A stretch of DNA of 32,766 bases, taken from contig JACPDT010000317.1 in the NCBI GenBank assembly GCA_016183865.1, positions 1 to 32,766 of the forward strand. The letters are read 5' to 3'. The translations under genes were made by a program, and so were the position numbers. This DNA comes from Armatimonadota bacterium. Lineage in GTDB: Bacteria > Vulcanimicrobiota > JACPDT01. Below the pieces are notes generated by a model, which searched no databases, was not told the DNA's origin, and saw nothing but the letters and a program-made list of their open reading frames with translations. How positions within the stretch are numbered: the stretch's first letter is position 1; every line of letters starts with the position of its first letter. Below are positions 22,557 to 32,559 of this stretch, piece by piece.

Positions 22557-23075
22557 TCATTTAACTTCGTTGCTGAGCCGCAGCGGAGCCATTAACTTAC
22601 CTGCCATAAGGGCGGCTGCCACTGTGGAGAATCCTACCATGATGCCCGGAGCCCCTCCCAGCGCAGAGATGACTCCTCCTGCTGTCAGGCAAAGCCCTGC
22701 CGCGATCCCCATGGCGGAACTTGCTGCTCTCGCATCGCTATTCGATTTGCTGGCCTCGATGATCTGGTCCACTGTGTATACTATTCCAAGACCGATATTC
22801 GCAAAAGCCAGGGCGGACGACGAAGCGGTGGAAAACCCCGCGCTGGCTCCACTTTTTGCAATAGTCAACGCAGTGAGTCCCACAAGACCGGCGCTGACTC
22901 CCAAGTCCACGGCAGTTCTGGCCAGGTTGTTTTTCGACTCGGAAGAAGCTGGAACAGGTTGCGCCGTCTCAGGTTGAGGCGCCGTGCTCCCTTTGGCGGC
23001 ATTCAGTCCAGGGCGAACGAACACCGCAGTGGAAGAAACATTTTGACGAAGAGCTCCTAATTGTGGCTGTATCAT
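22557..23075 (-). CDS. Small glycine-rich four-helix membrane protein, paralogue B
   Basis: The protein has 172 aa; AAGGAGG lies 9 nt before the ATG. Residues 1-48 are a Ser/Pro/Ala-rich, probably disordered tail. Four Gly/Ala-rich hydrophobic segments follow (TAVDLGVSAGLVGLTALTI; ALAFANIGLGIVYTVDQII; MGIAAGLCLTAGGVISALGG; GIMVGFSTVAAALMAGKLM). It aligns along its length with the neighbouring 23095-23589 product, so the pair arose by tandem duplication. There is no signal peptide. The helix composition is compatible with holin-like or pore-forming proteins, but no known family is recognised. It is the third gene of a PLD-paralogue A-paralogue B series. Confidence 0.6.
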   Translation of the reverse strand: MIQPQLGALRQNVSSTAVFVRPGLNAAKGSTAPQPETAQPVPASSESKNNLARTAVDLGVSAGLVGLTALTIAKSGASAGFSTASSSALAFANIGLGIVYTVDQIIEASKSNSDARAASSAMGIAAGLCLTAGGVISALGGAPGIMVGFSTVAAALMAGKLMAPLRLSNEVK

Positions 23076-23094: not shown

Positions 23095-23589
23095 TCAAAG
23101 CTTCATTTGAGCTATCGCTTTGCTGGCCATGAGGGCTGCAGAGATTGTGGAAAGCGCCACCACAAATCCGCCCGGCCATCCGACCGCCTGCGAAAAGCCT
23201 GACGCGGCCAGGGAAATTCCGGCTCCGAGACCGAGCAAACCCCCGGCAAATTTTCCCAAGTCTTCCGGAGCGTCGTGATATCTGCCACTATTCGTAGGGA
23301 CGGAAGCGACCTGCATCAACTGGTCTACTACATAAAAGATCCCGGCGCCCATATTCGCAAAAGCGATTGCCGGAGCCCCTGTTTTGGGGACTTCCAAAGC
23401 GGCTCCGCTGTTGAGAACAGTAAGCCCTGTGAGCCCGATCATCCCTGCGCCGATGCCCACATCGGCCGCTGTCTTGAGAATTTCCCTTGGCTCCTGCTTT
23501 CCTGGCTTATCGGTTTTCTGCTTGAGGCTGCCGCCATTGAGGGGAAGATGAGATGTGGATAGTGTTGGAAAAGGCGAAATAATAGTCAT
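23095..23589 (-). CDS. Small glycine-rich four-helix membrane protein, paralogue A
   Basis: The protein has 164 aa; AAGGAGGT lies 9 nt before the ATG. The layout is the same as in paralogue B: a disordered N-tail of about 35 residues (MTIISPFPTLSTSHLPLNGG), then TAADVGIGAGMIGLTGLTVL, AIAFANMGAGIFYVVDQLM, LGKFAGGLLGLGAGISLAAS and VVALSTISAALMASKAI. Shared positions include AG-(L/M)-(V/I)-GLT-LT, AFAN-G-GI-Y-VDQ and ST-(I/V)-AALMA-K. The 127-bp AT-rich stretch upstream (23590-23716) separates it from the PLD gene and probably carries its own promoter, although I could not pick one out securely. The function is unknown; holin-like permeabilisation or envelope scaffolding are options. Confidence 0.6.
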   Translation of the reverse strand: MTIISPFPTLSTSHLPLNGGSLKQKTDKPGKQEPREILKTAADVGIGAGMIGLTGLTVLNSGAALEVPKTGAPAIAFANMGAGIFYVVDQLMQVASVPTNSGRYHDAPEDLGKFAGGLLGLGAGISLAASGFSQAVGWPGGFVVALSTISAALMASKAIAQMKL

Positions 23590-23716: not shown

Positions 23717-25045
23717 TTAGTAACCCCTGAGCTCGTCCATTCTGCGAAGCTCATCTGCTTCTTCTCTTAGTGCAGCGATCTCCACATCAAACTCGGAATC
23801 CTCTGATGTCGTGAACATGGCTTTGGGCGCAATCTGGTTCAGGTCGTGTTCGGAACCGGTGATCGTCATGGGCGCTGCGCCGTGAAGGGCCTCTTTTCGC
23901 TTGGAATCGTGGCGAGGTCCAAGATAAATCGGATCCACGGATATCCTGGAGCTCCAATCTTCCTGGAAAATGGTCTCGAATTCGCTGTTTACTTCCTTTG
24001 AGATGATATCTGCCCCAGCTTCTCTGTGGACGTGGAAGCCCGCGTGTGTCCAATTGGCGCTTCCCACGATGACGCGATCGCCGTCAAATGCGGCGGCTTT
24101 TGCGTGGAGCTTTTCCGCAGTTTCAGGATTACAGGTGTACCACATCGCCTGGATTCCCGACTGTCTCAGCTCCTGCACAGCTCTTTCGTTTACAGGAAAA
24201 CCGTTTATTCTCAAAGGATGTACAATAACTTTTACATCTACACCGCGCTCATGGGCATCTTTAAGAGCCTGGATCACCGGTTTTGATGTAAGAGCGAAAA
24301 GTTCTGCATGAACTGAGCGCTTTGCTCCAGAGACTGCTTCCAGGACAGCTTCCTCATAAGGGGCGCCGGATTTGGGTCCTGATGTCACGACCCGCACAAG
24401 GGCATTCGCTTCCGGATGCGCGGGGGTCTTATTCATTGCAGGGAGGTCCTCTTTATCGCCTCCAGACTTGATCCAGTCTTGCCGGAAGTTCCGCTTCGCG
24501 TCATCTACGGCAGGACCGACGATTTCCACATCATAATCGTGATTCAGAGGAGAATGTTTGCCCCAGTTCATCCCTCCCAGAATGGCCTGATGCCCGTCTA
24601 TGATCAGCATCTTTACATGACACAACTGGCCTTTTCGTGCAGGATAGAAAAGAACCTCAACGCCGCTCTTCTCAAGCTTCTCTTTGATCTCATCCCGAGG
24701 CGCCTCGAATTTATCATTAGGAGGGTCCATAATGACCTGGACCTTGATTCCTTTCCTGGCTTCCTGGATCAGGAGATCAACCATTTCCGGCTTCTGGAGA
24801 TCATACATCTCGAGCCGTATGGAGGATTCGGCCCCCCGGATCGCTTCTTGTATATGAGCAAAGATCTCGTCCGAAGAGTCGGCAGGAGTGACGCTCTTGC
24901 CGGAAAGAAGGGCAACCTTGTTGCCGCTCAGATAAGAGGAGTCACCTTTGTCTCCTGGGGATCCCGGTTGATCGGACGCCTTCTTGTGTTTCTCCTTTTT
25001 TGGCGCCAGATCGCTGGGAAACGCGGCGCCGATGTTCTGAATCAT
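23717..25045 (-). CDS. Phospholipase D-like protein with two HKD motifs
   Basis: The protein has 442 aa. A disordered N-tail (1 to about 55) precedes two PLDc domains with complete catalytic motifs: HVKMLIID...GGMNW (H143, K145, D150) and HAKAAAFD...GSANW (H314, K316, D321). A charged C-terminal tail of about 70 residues ends in EIAALREEADELRRMDEL. Such proteins hydrolyse or transfer phosphodiester bonds of phospholipids (cardiolipin synthase/PLD type) or, in some families, nucleic acids. There is no transmembrane helix or signal peptide. GAGGG lies about 8 nt before ATG 25045. Copy 2 of the 65-bp repeat lies 31-95 bp upstream of the start and supplies a promoter-like pair pointing at it. The architecture parallels the C-terminal half of the YidD fusion protein. 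Confidence 0.85.
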   Translation of the reverse strand: MIQNIGAAFPSDLAPKKEKHKKASDQPGSPGDKGDSSYLSGNKVALLSGKSVTPADSSDEIFAHIQEAIRGAESSIRLEMYDLQKPEMVDLLIQEARKGIKVQVIMDPPNDKFEAPRDEIKEKLEKSGVEVLFYPARKGQLCHVKMLIIDGHQAILGGMNWGKHSPLNHDYDVEIVGPAVDDAKRNFRQDWIKSGGDKEDLPAMNKTPAHPEANALVRVVTSGPKSGAPYEEAVLEAVSGAKRSVHAELFALTSKPVIQALKDAHERGVDVKVIVHPLRINGFPVNERAVQELRQSGIQAMWYTCNPETAEKLHAKAAAFDGDRVIVGSANWTHAGFHVHREAGADIISKEVNSEFETIFQEDWSSRISVDPIYLGPRHDSKRKEALHGAAPMTITGSEHDLNQIAPKAMFTTSEDSEFDVEIAALREEADELRRMDELRGY

Positions 25046-25221: not shown

Positions 25222-25250
25222 TTGCAATTGGAATTCGTCTGTACTATAAT
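25222..25250 (+). promoter_or_regulatory. Strong sigma70-like promoter for the Tyr-X-(D/N/S) peptide gene
   Basis: TTGCAA (25222-25227), 17 nt, TATAAT (25245-25250). The start of transcription is expected near 25257, leaving a leader of about 50 nt. The -10 matches consensus fully and is among the best in the window. Confidence 0.7.
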
Positions 25251-25307: not shown

Positions 25308-25619
25308 GTGAAAAAAAAGGATGAAAACAAGGAGCAAGGACACGAGGTTTTGACCCGACGGGCGGCCATGAAACGAATCGCCGCCGCGATGGGCGGGGCA
25401 GCGTTGGGAGTCGGAATGTTCGGGCAGGCCCCGGAGGCCTGGGGCCAGTACTCAAGCTCCAGGCAGATCGCCCGATACATAAGCATTGAGGGCTCATACG
25501 TAGACACCGTCTATGTAGACAACAAGTACGTCAACCGCGGCCCGAGCTATAAAGACTACGTGTCTTTCTATAAGAGCTACTCAAGCCACAGGCCGCCGCC
25601 GCCTCCGGGCAAGAAGTAG
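25308..25619 (+). CDS. Tat-like small peptide with nine Tyr-X-(Asp/Asn/Ser) units; candidate radical-SAM RiPP precursor
   Basis: The protein has 103 aa from GTG 25308, preceded by GAGAGGGTGA. Residues 17-37 (TRRAAMKRIAAAMGGAALGVG) resemble a Tat signal: a twin Arg followed by Lys and an Ala/Gly hydrophobic stretch. From residue 46 (QYSSS) the sequence is tyrosine-rich: YSS, YIS, YVD, YVD, YVN, YKD, YVS, YKS and YSS, ending in HRPPPPPGKK. All nine tyrosines are followed at +2 by Asp, Asn or Ser. This is the spacing of three-residue cyclophane (triceptide-type) RiPP cores, where a radical SAM/SPASM enzyme links an aromatic side chain to the residue two positions on. Three radical-SAM-related genes lie directly downstream on the opposite strand. 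The precursor role is inferred from the pattern and context. Confidence 0.65.
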   Translation: MKKKDENKEQGHEVLTRRAAMKRIAAAMGGAALGVGMFGQAPEAWGQYSSSRQIARYISIEGSYVDTVYVDNKYVNRGPSYKDYVSFYKSYSSHRPPPPPGKK

Positions 25620-25729
25620 CGCTCTCTTCGGAAGGATACCGGCTGTGCTCGGCGGTGGGAAAGGAGGGACGAGCTTCGTCGCGTCCGGCGTCTCTTCTCT
25701 CGATGGGGAGGAATAAGGCCCGTGGCTGT

Positions 25730-27751
25730 CTATAAGAGCCCTCTAATGGCTTTGTAAATGATTTTCAGGCTCAGTCCATTCATACAGTGTCCGTCCCCTT
25801 CCGGGCAGTCCGTCTGGTAGCTGTCCGCACTGCCCTTCCCGATGCACCCTTTCGCATACTCACAATTCACGTCCGCCTGCAGATGGACTTGTCCCGAGTA
25901 GCCGTAGACTCGATGATCGGTCGGTCCCCAGAGGACGACCGCCGGAATTCCGCACAAATGGGCGGCATGCATGATGAAATTGTCTGATGTGACAACAGCA
26001 TTGAAGCGCCCGACAAGAGAGATCAATTGTCTGGGCGTTGTCAATCCCAGCAGACTGTGGGCTCCCCGGATATAGCGATCCCTCATTCTCCCGGCCTGGA
26101 CGATCCCGATCCCGTCTCGATTCAGAACCTCCACAAGGGATTCCCATCTATCGAGGGCCATCTGTTTTCTGGGAGAATCGGAGCTCTGGCAAACCAGAAC
26201 ATTGCGCTTTTTCCACGGTATGAGGCCAGGGAGAACGGGATCATCCTCCGGCGTCCAGGGGATGTAGAGGAGCTCCGGAACAGGAGTCGCGATGCCGAAC
26301 ATGCGGGCCAGAACCTGATAAGCCCTCTTCCCGTGAAGCTTGTAGTCTTCCTGGTCCCAGTAATTTGTGCCGATGAATCCGGCCCCTGGAGGGGGATGGC
26401 CGATGTGAGCGATTGCCGGGTGGCCCTTAAGAAGAGGAGGATATTTTGTTCGGGAAACCAGGTTGAATTGTCGAGAGGGATCCTGTTCCACAACCTGTTT
26501 CAGGACTCCCGAAATCATCAGGGTATCTCCCAATCCCCCGACGGGGTTGATCCACAAGAGATCTCCGTTTCCCATCGCGGGTTCAAGCTGCCTTTTTCCC
26601 GCAACCTTTGTCCCTTGAAGGTGAAGGGCATTTTCCGCCTGAGCCGGCTCGGCAACCGCCGATTCGCCTCTTACTGTGGGCTCGAAATATTGCTCAATAA
26701 GATCCCTCTTTGCCGCACACCATTCCGTTTTGTGAAGAAATGACCCTGAATGGGACCACGAGTCGAGGGGGCAGCCCCCGTGGCAGATGTTCCAGAACCG
26801 GCAGCCTTTGCATTCCCCCTTGGGTAGAACCTTGTTGCGCTCAAGAAGGGCAGCCCTCTGGGGATCTGCAAAAACCTGGGAAAAGGACTTGTCGAAAACG
26901 GAGCCATAGGGGAGCAGGCCCCAGTCCCCCGAACGGCCGCAATGCGACAGGCTTCCATCGGGCAGCAGGTTCAAGTGCGTATGGGCGCAGGCCCCTGAGT
27001 CGCAGCACATCAATGATGGGCTTCCCTCAAGAAGATTGCGAGTCAGGGAAAAGAAGGGCTCCACCTGGCCATACTGTTCACGGCGCTTCCACCATACGGG
27101 AAAGATCGCCCCGAGAAAATGGGCGTATTCCTCGGGGGTGATTTTCAATTGCCAGGGGTCCCCGCCATAGAGAAGGACAGGGTTGAACATGAATGATCCC
27201 TTCGGGGAGAGGTTGGAAAGAAACTGAAACACCTCGAGGGGTTTCGCCAGAGATCGCCTTGTCACCACATAGATGACTCCCCAACTGAATCCTTCTTCTT
27301 CCACGAGACGGAGAGCCTCCATGAACCTCTTGTTATAGGTCTTTGAGTCGCGTTTGGGCCCCAGACCTCTGATATCTCCTATGGGATCGTAGCTTGTGCC
27401 TATGCTTCGAATTCCCAGCTTTCCAAGAATCTCCGCGAACTTCCGGGAAAAGAGAGTAAGGTTGCTCTGCATATCATGCCTGATGCGGTCGCATGTTTTG
27501 GGGCAATGCTTCTCCTGAAAAGAAAGAGCCTGTGAGAAAAAGTCAGGACCCAGCAAAAGGGGTTCTCCACCGTGCCAGATGATTTCCATGTGCTCTTGGG
27601 GTCGTTCCAGCAGGAACTCATTGATCCGACAAAAGAAGATCTCCAGGGTCTCGGCGGACATGGTGGGTGTACGGGGTTTCTTGCGCACAACGTCGCAATA
27701 GGCGCATCTCCCGTTACATGCCTCCGTGGGCTTGAAAATTACGGTTGCCAT
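25730..27751 (-). CDS. Radical SAM/SPASM maturase fused to GT9 (heptosyltransferase-like) domain
   Basis: The protein has 673 aa; GAGGAG lies 8 nt before ATG 27751. Residues 1 to about 355 are a radical SAM enzyme: CNGRCAYC (C12, C16, C19) for the SAM-binding [4Fe-4S] cluster, WHGGEPLL, and a complete SPASM domain following the CX9-15GX4C ... CX2CX5CX3C ... C rule (C255, C271, C314, C317, C323, C327, C345). Residues about 395-673 form a GT9 domain: INPVGGLGDTLMISGVL, a middle sugar-nucleotide domain, AVVTSDNFIMHAAHLCGIPAVVLWGP and a Cys-rich end. SPASM enzymes of this type modify peptides; GT9 enzymes transfer heptose in LPS or onto proteins. One continuous frame joins the two. It overlaps the upstream gene by 13 nt. 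The predicted substrate is the convergent Tyr-rich peptide. Confidence 0.85.
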   Translation of the reverse strand: MATVIFKPTEACNGRCAYCDVVRKKPRTPTMSAETLEIFFCRINEFLLERPQEHMEIIWHGGEPLLLGPDFFSQALSFQEKHCPKTCDRIRHDMQSNLTLFSRKFAEILGKLGIRSIGTSYDPIGDIRGLGPKRDSKTYNKRFMEALRLVEEEGFSWGVIYVVTRRSLAKPLEVFQFLSNLSPKGSFMFNPVLLYGGDPWQLKITPEEYAHFLGAIFPVWWKRREQYGQVEPFFSLTRNLLEGSPSLMCCDSGACAHTHLNLLPDGSLSHCGRSGDWGLLPYGSVFDKSFSQVFADPQRAALLERNKVLPKGECKGCRFWNICHGGCPLDSWSHSGSFLHKTEWCAAKRDLIEQYFEPTVRGESAVAEPAQAENALHLQGTKVAGKRQLEPAMGNGDLLWINPVGGLGDTLMISGVLKQVVEQDPSRQFNLVSRTKYPPLLKGHPAIAHIGHPPPGAGFIGTNYWDQEDYKLHGKRAYQVLARMFGIATPVPELLYIPWTPEDDPVLPGLIPWKKRNVLVCQSSDSPRKQMALDRWESLVEVLNRDGIGIVQAGRMRDRYIRGAHSLLGLTTPRQLISLVGRFNAVVTSDNFIMHAAHLCGIPAVVLWGPTDHRVYGYSGQVHLQADVNCEYAKGCIGKGSADSYQTDCPEGDGHCMNGLSLKIIYKAIRGLL

Positions 27752-28608
27752 ACCCGCGACTCCTCATTCTGCAGTTTTCGGGCTCTGTTCTGACAGGCTG
27801 TTTCCAACATTTCACGGAAAAAAGCGGAGCACCCATTGTTTCCGGGCTTATTTGGAGCGAATCTTCCAAGGCAAGCTTTCCATCCGACGCAAGAGGCGCA
27901 GTGGTGGTTCTCGGCCAGGAGTCGTCTCCACCTGTTTGTCCTTTCCCTGATCGCTGGAAATTCGGCATCTTCTTCGATTTTTGAGAGATCATGGGCGATG
28001 AACTTCCTTGCCTTGAGATCCCCTCGATACAGCGCCACTCGCCCTGTTGCATCAAGATGCAGAAAATGCCTCGGGTCATCGAACCATATGGACCCCCATT
28101 CCAGGTATGCGGAGGGGTCATAGTTGGAAGCAATGAAGGCAAAAGGCTCGATTGAGGCGTGGGGAACGCGCTCAAGCACGGCATAGGTCATCAAGTCTGT
28201 GAGGGCATCCCAGTCCGTCCCGCCGTCGCCGAAAACCGCGCAAGAGTGAATCCCCACAGAAGACAGGATCCGAAGGGCAACGATATTGTCGGGATGGTTG
28301 CAGGGCAGGTAAACTCGCAGATCAAGATCCCGCAGCAAGTTGAGACCTTTTGCAAGATTGCGGAATTTCCCCAGAGATGGCGCCATGATTGCCAGGGGAG
28401 TTCCTTTCAGGTTTTCCCAGAGGTCGAGGTCGGACAGCGGAGAATCGGATTCCACCATCACGCAAAGGAGGTTGTTCCCGCTTTCTCGCACATGCCTCGC
28501 AGCCTTCTGAGCGTGATGGAGGCCGGTCACCTTCACGGCCACCGTGTATCCCTGAAGGCTTCTCAGCAGGGTCTTGTTATGGGGACAGACGATTTTTGGC
28601 AAGCTCAT
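27739..28608 (-). CDS. Radical-SAM/SPASM-related protein lacking the CxxxCxxC motif
   Basis: The protein has 289 aa. The middle reads like a partial TIM barrel (LNLLRDLDLRVYLPCNHPDNIVALRILSSVGIHSCAVFG, then GGTDWDALTDLM). The C-terminus carries a SPASM-type auxiliary-cluster motif, CASCVGWKAC (CX2CX5C), with a later GCSAFF cysteine. No CxxxCxxC is present near the N-terminus, so it should not bind a SAM-cleaving cluster. It overlaps the neighbouring radical SAM gene by 32 nt and the SPASM-GT9 gene by 13 nt, which indicates tight co-expression and probably complex formation. It may be a non-catalytic partner or peptide-recognition subunit. The annotation rests on the C-terminal motif and context; overall fold is inferred. 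Confidence 0.55.
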   Translation of the reverse strand: MSLPKIVCPHNKTLLRSLQGYTVAVKVTGLHHAQKAARHVRESGNNLLCVMVESDSPLSDLDLWENLKGTPLAIMAPSLGKFRNLAKGLNLLRDLDLRVYLPCNHPDNIVALRILSSVGIHSCAVFGDGGTDWDALTDLMTYAVLERVPHASIEPFAFIASNYDPSAYLEWGSIWFDDPRHFLHLDATGRVALYRGDLKARKFIAHDLSKIEEDAEFPAIRERTNRWRRLLAENHHCASCVGWKACLGRFAPNKPGNNGCSAFFREMLETACQNRARKLQNEESRVWQP

Positions 28609-29605
28609 CCTCGATTTCCGGAAGCCTCACAGGCGCCTCAGGGATAAGGCGGTTCAGGACCTGGCACAGCCCACCCCCGGCGCAAACACAGTCTTCCTGG
28701 TATCTGCAGCCATCGCATTCATCATAAATTCCAGGAATCTCCGCCTTGATCTCATCCCTGAGTTTCCAGAAATGATCCTCGATCTGTTTCATCGAGTTGA
28801 ATTCAAAGAGCGATTTTCTCCGGTAATTGGAAAGGGGAAAGCAGAAATAGACACCCATATCGGGCGATATGTCGCAGGCCGGGCCGCAACCAAACTCGAC
28901 AGCGCCTCTGAAGCGGTGAAGCCATCCCAGCTCCTCATCATTGAACCGACAGATGGGAAATCCGCAGTCCAGTCCGGGCCTGACCCGGAGCGTATCGAAA
29001 AGGGACCGATAGGAGTATAGCCGCTCCACGACATGTCTGATTTCCTTCGGGTGGATGAAACGGCTCCCTGCACCCGGGATGGGGTGGGCGATGCCGATGC
29101 GCAAATGTCGCTTCAAGCCGAAACGGTTGATGAGGTCAAAGAGAAAATCGAGCTTGAAATCGGGGCGATAGATATTGAAGCCCGGACTGACCCAGGGCCC
29201 CATGAGGGAGAGAAAACGTTGGATGCTCCCTGTTTCCTTTTCTGAAGCGGGTGTCTGCGCAGGATCATTCAGGTTGCACACAAGGGAAAATCGGTCTGTG
29301 TTGACATCGCAGAGGTGATGCTTGAGCTCTTCGAGCCTGGAGGGGCTCAGGATTCCATTCGTGAAGACTGTAACATCAAAGCCTCGTTCCAGCAGATAGA
29401 GGACAAAATCAACAAATTCGGGGTGTACCGTCGGCTCCCCGCCCAGAAGGGACAAATGCCTCTCCCCTGATGCCTTGAGGAAATCCGCGATGTAGATGAG
29501 GTTCTCCCAGGACATGCGAATCCCGGTGTCCCCCGACATTTCTTCCTTTGCGAAACAATAGGGACAGGAGCGGTTGCACCGTGTGGTAAGAAGTATATTC
29601 GCCAT
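28577..29605 (-). CDS. Radical SAM protein with SPASM/twitch-like C-terminus
   Basis: The protein has 342 aa. TTRCNRSCPYC gives the CxxxCxxC cluster ligands (C10, C14, C17), followed by the core motifs LSLLGGEPTVHPEF and VTVFTNGIL. The C-terminal part has CGPACDISPDMGVYFC and CDGCRYQEDCVCAGGGLC, enough cysteines for at least one auxiliary cluster. This pattern is common in peptide- and protein-modifying radical SAM enzymes. The ATG has no convincing SD and is preceded by a 13-bp hairpin directly after the PKD gene's stop. It is the second gene of the PKD-rSAM-SPASM-like-rSAM/GT9 series; its role may be a second modification of the Tyr-rich peptide or of another substrate. Confidence 0.82.
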   Translation of the reverse strand: MANILLTTRCNRSCPYCFAKEEMSGDTGIRMSWENLIYIADFLKASGERHLSLLGGEPTVHPEFVDFVLYLLERGFDVTVFTNGILSPSRLEELKHHLCDVNTDRFSLVCNLNDPAQTPASEKETGSIQRFLSLMGPWVSPGFNIYRPDFKLDFLFDLINRFGLKRHLRIGIAHPIPGAGSRFIHPKEIRHVVERLYSYRSLFDTLRVRPGLDCGFPICRFNDEELGWLHRFRGAVEFGCGPACDISPDMGVYFCFPLSNYRRKSLFEFNSMKQIEDHFWKLRDEIKAEIPGIYDECDGCRYQEDCVCAGGGLCQVLNRLIPEAPVRLPEIEDELAKNRLSP

Positions 29606-29655: not shown

Positions 29656-30312
29656 TTATCTGGCCTCCTCGATCGTGACCGTCACGCTTCCTCCCCTGTT
29701 CGAGCCGTCAAAGACGGTAAGGACGTATTTACCTGTATCCGGCAATTTGCCTTCCCAACTGTTGACCCCATCCCTGGCACCCTCGTTGGGGGGATGGTAG
29801 TTGCCGCCTGACGCAGATTCGAGATGGCCATAAGGCTCCATCCCCGCGGCCTGGGCCTGCATATGGATGCGTACCTTCTGCCCGCGTGTGGCCTGGAACC
29901 GGATCTCCGATGCTCCGCCTTCTCCCGCCACTGTAACGGTCTTTTTCACGGCGACATGGATCGGCTGGTTCCAGGAGGCGCTTTGGGTGCCGGAACGGAC
30001 GAGGACCCCTGCGGTGAAGTCTCCGATACGCTCATAAGTGTGGGCAGGGTTTTGCTCACCGGATGTAGAGCCTTCCCCGAAGGTCCATCGGTAAGAGTAT
30101 TTGCCTTTTCCGCCGACGGCTTTGCACTGGAACTTCACTGTCAGTGGGGGCGCTCCATCGGTGGGCGTTGCGGCGCAGGAGATCGTGAGGGGCAGCTTCT
30201 CCGCGGACAGGGTCCATCCCGCCAGAAAGCCGATCAGGACCAGGAAGGCCGTGCAGCAATACACGAAGGCACGGCCACCGGGTTGTGGTTTCCAGGTAAG
30301 CCGAATGTTCAT
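29656..30312 (-). CDS. Membrane-anchored PKD-domain protein with C-terminal PPC-like beta domain
   Basis: The protein has 218 aa; GGGGGGA lies 7 nt before ATG 30312. There is an N-terminal signal anchor (residues about 17-35, VYCCTAFLVLIGFLAGWTL). A PKD domain follows at about 40-120 (ATPTDGAPPLTVKFQCKAVGGKGKYSYRWTFGEGSTSGEQNPAHTY split over the usual strands, with the WTFGEG motif). A second beta domain at about 125-218 resembles bacterial pre-peptidase C-terminal domains (SGGNY; LPDTGKYVLTVFDGSNRGGSVTVTI). It is extracytoplasmic and probably binds protein or carbohydrate. It is the first gene of the radical-SAM series and could be a surface partner or a modification target. Confidence 0.78.
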   Translation of the reverse strand: MNIRLTWKPQPGGRAFVYCCTAFLVLIGFLAGWTLSAEKLPLTISCAATPTDGAPPLTVKFQCKAVGGKGKYSYRWTFGEGSTSGEQNPAHTYERIGDFTAGVLVRSGTQSASWNQPIHVAVKKTVTVAGEGGASEIRFQATRGQKVRIHMQAQAAGMEPYGHLESASGGNYHPPNEGARDGVNSWEGKLPDTGKYVLTVFDGSNRGGSVTVTIEEAR

Positions 30313-30534: not shown

Positions 30535-32559
30535 TTACAGGCTGGCGCTCGGCCGTCGGGGCCTGTCGTTCACCAGGCGTGTTCCCTGACCGACAAGCTT
30601 CATCACATTCTGCTGGAGAAATGCGGGGGCACTGTTCGCGGCGATTTGAAGGAGGGTGTTCCATCTGAAAGGTGGCGGCACGTCCCACTCAACCTTGAAT
30701 TCGGCTCCGGAGGCCGCGTCATGTTCAAATTCAGATTCAAAAACCGTCTTTAGATGCCGGGCAAGGTCAGGGTCCGATATCCGCAAATTCAGCTCCTTGT
30801 TCAAGTAGAAAGCCTGCGGCGTCCAGTCGCACGAACCTGCAAGAACTATCTCATCGTCGAAAAGGGCCATTTTTGTGTGAAAGTGGCGCCGGCAGTCGTC
30901 GGGTGAGCGCTTTTCATCCTTGAAGATTCGCGTCTCCACGCCCGATTCCGTCAGTCTCTCCCATGCTTCCCTGTTGACCGGAGCATTCGAAAGAAGAACC
31001 CGTATCTTCACACCCCCCTGGTGTGCTTCGATCAGCTCATTCACTACATTTTTGTCCGTGAGCCAGTACATTCCCACATCTATGGATTTCTTTGCCTCCC
31101 TGATGCTCCGGTTCACGTGTTCCGCGATTCTATCGTTTCCCGGCTTGCTTCCCACGATCTCGACGGCGGGGCTTTGATCGTAGTGAATCACGTAGCGGGG
31201 TGTGCCGCCCGATTCTCTCCAATCTTCCTCAAAGAGCCTGCGGGTTTCATTTACAGTATCGCCTGTGACAAGAAAGGAGAGATCAAAGTTCTCATTTTTT
31301 CCGAACATCTCGCCCCAGTTCTTGCTGCCCACGATGGCCGCTTTGTCGTCAATAATGGCCAGTTTCGTGTGATTGAACTGCCAGAGGGACTTCGTGATCG
31401 GATATTCCAGAACGGCAGCCCCTGCGGCCCGAAGATCATCCATGGTTTTGCGGTGTATTTCTTCATCCTTTTCAGACCAGCCGAGAGGATTGTTCATGAT
31501 CCGGACTTTCACTCCCTCTGCCAGCTTCTCTTTCAACAGGTCAGCCATGATTGTGCTCTTGAAGGAGAACATCTCCACGTCAATGGAACGGACGGCTGAG
31601 CGGACCAGACTCAGTGCCGCGGGGTCAATCGCCTCATTCGAGAGGGGAACCAGGGTCGTAGCTCCGACTTTGAAGGCAGGCTTGTCCCCCAGCCCGATGG
31701 AGCCGGGGTCGAAGGGTTCAGGGGGCTCGGCCTGGCCTTTCTCCGTGGTGTTCCTTTCCTTCTCCCCATGAAAAACGGAATCCCCGAACAAACGGCCATA
31801 TTGGCTGCCGATCTCAAACCCTTTTCGTCCGCCGCGATAAAGGCCGACAACGAGGCCAAGGGGGGTGCCGATCACCATTCCCGCCGCGTTTGCAATCGCG
31901 TTGCTCCCCGTCGTTTCCTCCAGGAATTCGTGAATTCTGTAAGTCGGTTTTGCAAGAGTATTTTCGATCTTGCCGAATCCGTACACCGATTCAGGTGAGT
32001 ATTTGCACGCAATCTCTGCATTCACATCGTCAATCTTGTCTCTGGCCGCCCTGTCCGAGAGATAGGCGCCAAGGCCGGCGCCGACAGTTCCCATCAATGC
32101 CGCCCCTGCCAGGCCGCCTGCCAGGGTGACCGCCGCTCGGCCCAGACGCTCCAGATATCCCTTTTCGGTGGTCCCTGTTGACTCTTGCGGCTTCCTGTTT
32201 TCGGAAGTATTCCTCAGATAATGGGTCTCATAAGAGAAAATCTTTTCACCAGGTTCATACCGGTAATTCATGTGGGCAGGCACGAAGTCGTGCCCATGAC
32301 CTGACTCCTGGTGGGAGACGACGGGGTCTTCGCCGCCGGAAGCGGTCTTGTGGCAGCGCATCATACGCATGAAGCCCATGGTGCCGCCCTTGAAGAGTCC
32401 GTATTCCTTCACCGCTTCCAGGGTGTATTGGGAGCATGATGGAGTATACTTACAGCCATAATTTCGGTCATCCCGCAGGCCTGCCGAAACATGCTTCTGG
32501 TACTTCCTGATGGCCCAGACGCCGAATTTGCCGAGCACTGGAGAGACAGGATCTCGCAT
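30535..32559 (-). CDS. YidD-glycine-zipper-phospholipase D fusion protein
   Basis: The protein has 674 aa. Residues 1 to about 82 match YidD, the membrane-protein insertion efficiency factor: AIRKYQKHVSAGL, CKYTPSCSQYTLEAVKEYG, FKGG and MMRCH, with the three conserved cysteines C36, C42 and C69. Residues about 138-265 hold two Gly/Ala-rich hydrophobic stretches of glycine-zipper type (TLAGGLAGAALMGTVGAGLGAYL; AGMVIGTPLGLVVGLYRGGRKG). Residues about 295-620 hold two PLDc domains with full HKD motifs: NHTKLAIID (H397, K399, D404) and HTKMALFD (H561, K563, D568). No SD precedes ATG 32559; a promoter 6 nt upstream implies a leaderless mRNA. YidD is normally a separate protein of about 70-90 aa near yidC, so this fusion is unusual. 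It probably recruits PLD activity to the inner membrane. Confidence 0.88.
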   Translation of the reverse strand: MRDPVSPVLGKFGVWAIRKYQKHVSAGLRDDRNYGCKYTPSCSQYTLEAVKEYGLFKGGTMGFMRMMRCHKTASGGEDPVVSHQESGHGHDFVPAHMNYRYEPGEKIFSYETHYLRNTSENRKPQESTGTTEKGYLERLGRAAVTLAGGLAGAALMGTVGAGLGAYLSDRAARDKIDDVNAEIACKYSPESVYGFGKIENTLAKPTYRIHEFLEETTGSNAIANAAGMVIGTPLGLVVGLYRGGRKGFEIGSQYGRLFGDSVFHGEKERNTTEKGQAEPPEPFDPGSIGLGDKPAFKVGATTLVPLSNEAIDPAALSLVRSAVRSIDVEMFSFKSTIMADLLKEKLAEGVKVRIMNNPLGWSEKDEEIHRKTMDDLRAAGAAVLEYPITKSLWQFNHTKLAIIDDKAAIVGSKNWGEMFGKNENFDLSFLVTGDTVNETRRLFEEDWRESGGTPRYVIHYDQSPAVEIVGSKPGNDRIAEHVNRSIREAKKSIDVGMYWLTDKNVVNELIEAHQGGVKIRVLLSNAPVNREAWERLTESGVETRIFKDEKRSPDDCRRHFHTKMALFDDEIVLAGSCDWTPQAFYLNKELNLRISDPDLARHLKTVFESEFEHDAASGAEFKVEWDVPPPFRWNTLLQIAANSAPAFLQQNVMKLVGQGTRLVNDRPRRPSASL

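Follow-up and report, generated by a model that had tools for sequence, protein, structure and literature searches.

A radical SAM/SPASM enzyme fused to a GT9 heptosyltransferase-fold domain in a conserved gene cassette with tyrosine-repeat precursor peptides

A 32,766-nucleotide contig assigned to an Armatimonadota bacterium (JACPDT010000317.1; the whole stretch is hereafter called the window) encodes a single protein in which a radical SAM/SPASM enzyme (rSAM2) is fused to a GT9 heptosyltransferase-fold domain. To the fusion, the cassette in which it lies adds a second radical SAM enzyme (rSAM1) and a dead radical SAM protein (pseudo-rSAM). Taking the analysis as a whole, we consider it probable that the radical SAM enzymes form Tyr-X-X three-residue cyclophanes and that GT9 glycosylates Ser on a Tat-exported RiPP, which would make the product a crosslinked glycopeptide. 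We know of no characterised enzyme that joins C-H activation crosslinking with O-glycosylation.

An intact fusion gene that recurs in other genomes

The uninterrupted 673-codon frame reported in the preliminary description of this DNA at 25730-27751 was recovered on the minus strand, where it runs from an ATG at 27751 to a stop codon at 25730-25732 with no internal stop. The gene is divided as follows:

25730..27751, minus strand: rSAM2-GT9 fusion gene, 673 aa, with full-length homologues in loci L038 and L041
26681..27751, minus strand: radical SAM and SPASM half, residues 1-357; CxxxCxxC at 27718-27695, SPASM cysteines at residues 255-345
26567..26680, minus strand: low-complexity linker, residues 358-395, delimited by alignment and unconserved between fused homologues
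25733..26566, minus strand: GT9 (heptosyltransferase-fold) half, residues 396-673

As the window comes from a 353-contig genome, and as neither the fusion nor a convincing pseudo-rSAM relative was found in 149 genomes of the host's phylum, the fusion might be an assembly or binning artefact of this MAG, or a decayed gene. This is extremely improbable: the L038 protein is also a full-length fusion, with 67% identity over residues 1-673 of the window protein, the L041 protein is another (49% identity over residues 1-669), and in a Geobacter-labelled MAG (L039/G150) the rSAM2 and GT9 halves lie on two contig ends that share an exact 55-bp overlap and join into one open frame. A chance or assembly-join fusion was therefore rejected. 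The third-position GC content is uniform across the two halves (0.641 and 0.629), their motifs are conserved, and misbinning of the contig would affect the host assignment and not the gene. A 984-aa open frame in G158 was discarded, its DNA having stops between the two genes. The absence of the cassette from the 149 same-phylum genomes suggests horizontal transfer or a misbinned contig; the cassette enzymes (window 25308-29605) are about 60-72% identical to the versions found in Nitrospiraceae- and Geobacter-labelled MAGs.

The rSAM2 half is a radical SAM/SPASM enzyme

The CxxxCxxC motif (C12/C16/C19) and the full SPASM cysteine set described earlier are both present, the latter as C255-x10-G-x4-C271, C314-x2-C317-x5-C323-x3-C327 and C345, which follows the radical SAM/SPASM pattern of CxxxCxxC, C-x9-15-G-x4-C, C-x2-C-x5-C-x3-C and a final Cys. 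The domain searches that had been suggested for both halves gave scores above cut-off for Radical_SAM, SPASM (as TIGR04085) and Glyco_transf_9. For rSAM2, Pfam Radical_SAM scored 43.0 bits (cut-off 29.5) and NCBIfam TIGR04085 scored 36.0 (cut-off 27), with the Pfam SPASM model below its cut-off (14.9 vs 21.5). Among solved structures, anSMEcpe (4k36/4k37; E 1e-19, the best PDB sequence match) and ChlB (9gm3) are closest. The best NCBIfam neighbours, all far below cut-off, are DynA, the anaerobic sulfatase maturase, DarW/DarE, YhhB, AmcB and FxsB, most of them maturases that form crosslinks; DynA scores best, at 144 bits, and DarE reaches 108 bits, against cut-offs of 450 and 650 bits. rSAM2 falls outside the known 3-CyFE families as represented by the curated cyclophane models compared (GrrM/OscB, FxsB, XyeB, YhhB and AmcB), all of which score far below cut-off. 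An assignment as anti-phage viperin was rejected, since the PADLOC pVip matches are weak or cover the generic radical SAM core only and the cassette and its precursors fit peptide maturation.

The C-terminal half has a predicted GT9 fold

The motifs GLGDTLM and TSDNFIMHAAHLCGIPAVVLWGP, on which the GT9 assignment was originally based, do lie in the C-terminal half:

26536-26525 (GLGD), 26176-26165 (SPRK) and 25987-25967 (SDNFIMH), minus strand: GT9 motifs
25864-25784, minus strand: C-terminal four-Cys region

This half matches Glyco_transf_9 (PF01075) with 26.0 bits (cut-off 22), and five split GT9 homologues score 26.7-46.9 bits. Sixteen homologous GT9 domains were aligned on their own, a combined alignment of fused and split forms having misplaced the starts of the split GT9 rows, and served to build an AF2 model (pLDDT 87). 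Foldseek placed Veillonella GT9 3tov, E. coli heptosyltransferase II 1psw, TibC 4rap and WaaC at the top of the matches. VIA-align superposed the model on heptosyltransferase II 1psw (Z 21.2, rmsd 3.9, 254 residues aligned), on the protein O-heptosyltransferase TibC 4rap (Z 19.4, rmsd 4.0, 265 aligned) and on WaaC in complex with ADP-2-fluoro-heptose, an ADP-heptose analogue (Z 18.2, rmsd 4.3, 243 aligned). In profile searches GLGD aligned with the SMGD and SDNFIMH with the VDTGLSH of WaaC. The GxGD, SPRK and SDN..H motifs are intact in the window and kept in nearly all GT9 homologues; the domain is degenerate in L041 (CMDD, TPRT, SNN) and L055, and the His is lost in L053. Four C-terminal Cys are kept in most homologues and may correspond to the four-Cys iron finger of TibC, with a different spacing (C-x5-C-x12-C-x6-C here, Cys339/342/358/370 in TibC). 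A TibC-type N-terminal beta-barrel was not found: the region before the window GT9 consists of rSAM/SPASM and linker, and the split homologues begin directly at the GT9 fold. In the model, the C-terminal half is a GT9 fold (GT-B) with the GxGD and D..H donor-site motifs. It had been foreseen that this half might not score as GT9 or might lack a nucleotide-sugar site; as the cut-off is passed and the fold and donor-site motifs are present in the AF2 model and its structural comparison, that objection falls.

The fusion is part of a conserved cassette

Directly upstream of the fusion gene, with overlapping ends, lie the genes of the pseudo-rSAM and of rSAM1:

27739..28608, minus strand: pseudo-radical-SAM protein, 289 aa, overlapping both neighbours
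28577..29605, minus strand: rSAM1, second radical SAM enzyme, with CNRSCPYC and a SPASM/twitch-like C terminus
29656..30312, minus strand: PKD-domain secreted protein, upstream of rSAM1

The 289-aa protein lacks CxxxCxxC, keeps SPASM-type cysteines (C237, C240, C246, C260) and matches no Pfam or NCBIfam family; among its homologues, that of L046 has no NCBIfam match and that of L038 a sub-threshold SPASM match only. Its AF2 model (pLDDT 89.5) aligns with ChlB and anSMEcpe over ~260 residues (Z 13.4; rmsd 4.1 and 3.7, respectively), and by this predicted structure the protein is a dead (cluster-less) radical SAM protein with an rSAM/SPASM fold. The PKD protein is probably not part of the cassette, as it is not conserved in related loci. 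Further out, the window encodes a 674-aa protein in which a YidD domain is fused to a two-domain phospholipase D-like protein (30535-32559, minus strand), a second PLD-like protein (23717-25045) and two adjoining small hydrophobic proteins (22557-23075 and 23095-23589, minus strand) that look by eye like distant paralogues and match no family above cut-off.

Single-sequence scans of genome and viral contig collections with the fusion protein gave no matches. An alignment search with rSAM1 returned 57 loci, 24 of which (the window not counted) have pseudo-rSAM and rSAM2 directly after rSAM1. The order rSAM1, pseudo-rSAM, rSAM2 and, usually, GT9 last is conserved. By MAG label (nearly all cassette loci come from MAGs) the cassette occurs in six phyla, Nitrospirota, Desulfobacterota, Bacteroidota, Elusimicrobiota, Spirochaetota and Nitrospinota, the labels being Nitrospiraceae/Nitrospirae, Geobacter, Deltaproteobacteria, Syntrophaceae, Nitrospinales, Bacteroidetes/Bacteroidales/Bacteroides/Muribaculaceae, Elusimicrobia and Spirochaetaceae. 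The proposed survey of fused and split versions showed rSAM2 and GT9 fused in the window and three other MAGs (L038, L039/G150, L041) and encoded by separate genes in 13 (L042-L050, L052, where GT9 is on another contig, L053, L056 and L060); L055 has a separate, degenerate GT9. In seven cases (L051, L054, L057, L058, L059, L061, L073) GT9 is absent from the locus and from the whole MAG (E 1e-22). GT9 is optional: seven genomes lack it and two others have a degenerate form. On a tree built from rSAM1 and rSAM2, all fused forms fall in one supported group of five (100/99), inside which the GT9 of L041 is decayed and its sister L073 has none; the tree implies one fused/split change and five changes of GT9 state. 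The four-gene cassette, with rSAM2 and GT9 mostly encoded apart, seems to be the form from which the fusion is derived.

Annotation pipelines probably overlook the system, since neither the two maturases nor the pseudo-rSAM nor the precursor falls within any of the curated families searched. The cassettes have no dedicated peptidase or transporter in common, which fits export by the housekeeping Tat machinery and signal peptidases.

Several variants were noted alongside. In L043 (11876-14918) a tandem pair of rSAM2-type genes, with 50% and 30% identity to that of the window, stands ahead of a separate GT9, and the second may perform an extra step. In several gut MAGs, mostly Clostridia-type, rSAM1-family enzymes that have no pseudo-rSAM, rSAM2 or GT9 with them are encoded close to Tyr-rich repeat peptides, for example with YYNSYYNTTYSPGGGTA repeats (L072 6049-6300; L075 8445-8717; L079 2373-2723; L083 9513-9695; L086 9281-9562 and 9654-9935); it may be that rSAM1 matures Tyr repeats in general. 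At L035 (5671-11392, on a contig shared with L085) an rSAM1 relative is found with two small proteins, one U32-peptidase-like by eye, and with a 728-aa protein whose C terminus is SYYSTSYYSSSYYSYYSSYSGW; GTPase-like genes adjoin, and the Tyr/Ser tail of a large protein is possibly modified here. At L034 (6314-10634) an rSAM1 relative is extended at its C terminus by a TPR-like region and is encoded close to a protein with a HHYYYYETVSHTDYNSDGTSYTYYTTEERCYTYYTYEH stretch.

A family of Tyr-repeat precursors

The Tyr/Ser-rich peptide to which the preliminary description referred is encoded on the plus strand:

25222..25250, plus strand: sigma-70-like promoter, TTGCAA-17-TATAAT, upstream of the precursor
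25308..25619, plus strand: precursor peptide, 103 aa, GTG start, with a Tat-like leader LTRRAAMKRIAA and a Tyr core

One promoter site of this form was found against 2.4 expected in shuffles, with its position as the one argument for it. The precursor gene converges on the enzyme genes from the opposite strand, as in L038 and L039. All nine Tyr of the core lie in Y-x-[S/D/N], which was reached in 0 of 200,000 shuffles. The peptide is 49% identical to the L038 precursor, shares the C-terminal end PPPGK(K) with that of L039 and scores 17.9 against the TIGR01409 Tat-signal model (cut-off 16.7); other precursors carry RRxA[LIM]KR, and the tested ones are below the TIGR01409 cut-off. All cassettes but L044, whose contig stops just after GT9, hold a small ORF in which an [RK]xA[LIMF][KR]R-type leader motif, mostly RRxA[LIM]KR, precedes a core that contains Tyr and is usually rich in it. 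By its sequence, the window peptide is a member of this family of Tat-leader Tyr-repeat precursors.

The precursors reach about 220 aa and are dominated by Tyr (up to 77). No ORF in control loci totalling 100 kb exceeds 9 Tyr per 40 residues, against 11-30 for most precursors; those of the window, L056 and L060 are less Tyr-dense and were assigned by leader and position. Across 24 precursors the enrichment of Ser, Asn and Asp peaks at Tyr+2 (1.64x, with other offsets at 0.6-1.32), the YY-rich precursors of L048-L050 and L053 being a poorer fit to Y-x-[S/N/D]. The leader ends with a lipobox-like Cys in L051, L054 and L059 and with AxA-like sites in others. The precursors tested match no Pfam or NCBIfam family, and no further copies were found in the host genome, which encodes TatC.

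Intact GT9 goes with Ser-rich cores

The median Ser/(Ser+Asn+Asp) share is 0.70 in the 15 precursors with an intact GT9 and 0.29 in the nine without, a comparison conceived after the cores had been seen (post hoc; Mann-Whitney p = 0.0005). As independent-pairs tests offer only 3-4 tree-independent contrasts and reached no significance, PGLS on the tree was used, which gave a slope of 0.38 (p = 0.0025, lambda 0.98). Exceptions are L053, L056 and L060, which have GT9 yet Asn/Asp-rich or Tyr-poor cores. Ser-rich cores accompany an intact GT9, and loss or decay of GT9 is accompanied by cores rich in Asn and Asp.

These data bear on two other explanations. One is that the peptide is not the substrate of the GT9 half, which would instead glycosylate a lipid or LPS, or would be a binding module without catalytic function that became fused by chance. 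LPS core assembly is indeed the best-known role of GT9 enzymes, five further GT9 genes occur in the host, two of them on the contig of its HldE/RfaE heptose kinase gene, and the fused GT9 of L041 lacks its motifs. We nevertheless hold this to be unlikely, as GT9 lies in the same cassette at most loci, is about as conserved as rSAM2 (69% and 71% identity between L038 and the window), tracks Ser-rich precursors, has no genome-wide match where the cassette lacks it and has intact catalytic motifs in the window. The other is that rSAM2 oxidises Ser in the repeats, in the formylglycine or aminomalonate manner of anaerobic sulfatase maturases, with rSAM1 performing the Tyr chemistry and GT9 decorating the remainder. 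rSAM2 is about as near to sulfatase maturases as to cyclophane enzymes, with anSMEcpe as its best PDB sequence match and TIGR03942 as second-best NCBIfam model, and the cores of GT9-bearing cassettes are Ser-rich; Ser oxidation therefore deserves consideration. It appears improbable, however, because rSAM2 is kept in L041 and L073, whose cores contain 1% Ser, and because the constant feature of the cores is Tyr-x-[S/N/D] and not Ser.

Relation to known systems and proposed mechanism

The closest parallels to Tyr-X-X crosslinking are the triceptide systems (OscB/GrrM, MscB/FxsB, XncB/XyeB, YxdB, YhhB), in which a SPASM rSAM maturase likewise stands beside a small precursor with aromatic-x-[N/D/S] repeats and i to i+2 spacing; the present precursors show the same repeated aromatic-X-X motifs, i to i+2. 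What sets the present loci apart is the pairing of two radical SAM enzymes with a dead third, the GT9 partner, the Tat-like leader and the great length of the Tyr repeats. DarE/DynA (darobactin/dynobactin), among the nearest relatives of rSAM2 by NCBIfam score, have no GT9, and their substrates are short peptides and not Tat-leader Tyr repeats. Pseudo-rSAM partners exist in other RiPP systems, such as the GG-Bacteroidales system, where they are likewise rSAM/SPASM-like, lack CxxxCxxC and lie beside an active maturase, with a different precursor type. TibC and AAH share the GT9-like GT-B fold and perhaps the four-Cys region near the C terminus, and put heptose on protein Ser; they differ in having the N-terminal beta-barrel and another Cys spacing, whereas here a radical SAM enzyme is fused or alongside and a peptide acceptor is predicted. 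WaaC/WaaF (GT9) have the same fold (Z 18-21) and the GxGD, D..H and GPT motifs, but differ in genomic setting, the probable acceptor here being a peptide and not LPS.

Triceptide enzymes join residues i and i+2: YxdB links Tyr C3 to Asp C-beta, MscB links Phe C4 to Ser C-beta and OscB joins Trp to Asn/Asp (PMC11002830), while TibC heptosylates Ser and not Thr (PMC4358343). Together with the Y-x-[S/N/D] repeats and the TatC and heptose kinase of the host, these properties lead us to propose cytoplasmic crosslinking and Ser glycosylation followed by Tat export. The conserved RRxA[LIM]KR leader would be recognised by the cytoplasmic maturases, and the pseudo-rSAM would serve as scaffold or recognition subunit. 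At each Tyr, rSAM1 and/or rSAM2 would abstract a hydrogen from the C-beta of the residue at position +2 (Ser, Asn or Asp) and bond this carbon to the Tyr ring, so that a series of three-residue Tyr-X-X cyclophanes of the triceptide kind results. A sugar, most likely heptose from ADP-heptose (a donor that is suggested by the GT9 fold), would then be attached to Ser side chains by the GT9 half, in the way that TibC modifies autotransporters, and the rSAM2-GT9 fusion would hold both steps on one protein. The stiff glycopeptide would be exported folded via Tat and then released or lipid-anchored. The long, variable repeats point to a surface material rather than a small antibiotic.

Novelty and implications

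Peptide crosslinking by radical SAM enzymes and protein glycosylation by GT9 enzymes are each already known; no paper on the present system was found in a search of an open-access library. We tentatively suggest that the cassettes may represent an undescribed RiPP class of at least six phyla. In it, Tat-exported Tyr-repeat proteins would be rigidified as Tyr-X-X cyclophanes by a pair of radical SAM enzymes with their dead partner, and the same repeats would be glycosylated by a dedicated, sometimes fused heptosyltransferase, yielding ribosomal crosslinked glycopolymers that are probably surface material and not antibiotics. Such a system would unite C-H activation crosslinking with O-glycosylation, both post-translational, with natural split and fused versions available for testing. 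The presence of GT9 with Ser-rich repeats and its loss with Asn/Asp-rich repeats form a natural experiment, which makes the question of the acceptor directly testable, and the Tyr-dominated precursors suggest a new kind of bacterial exported material.
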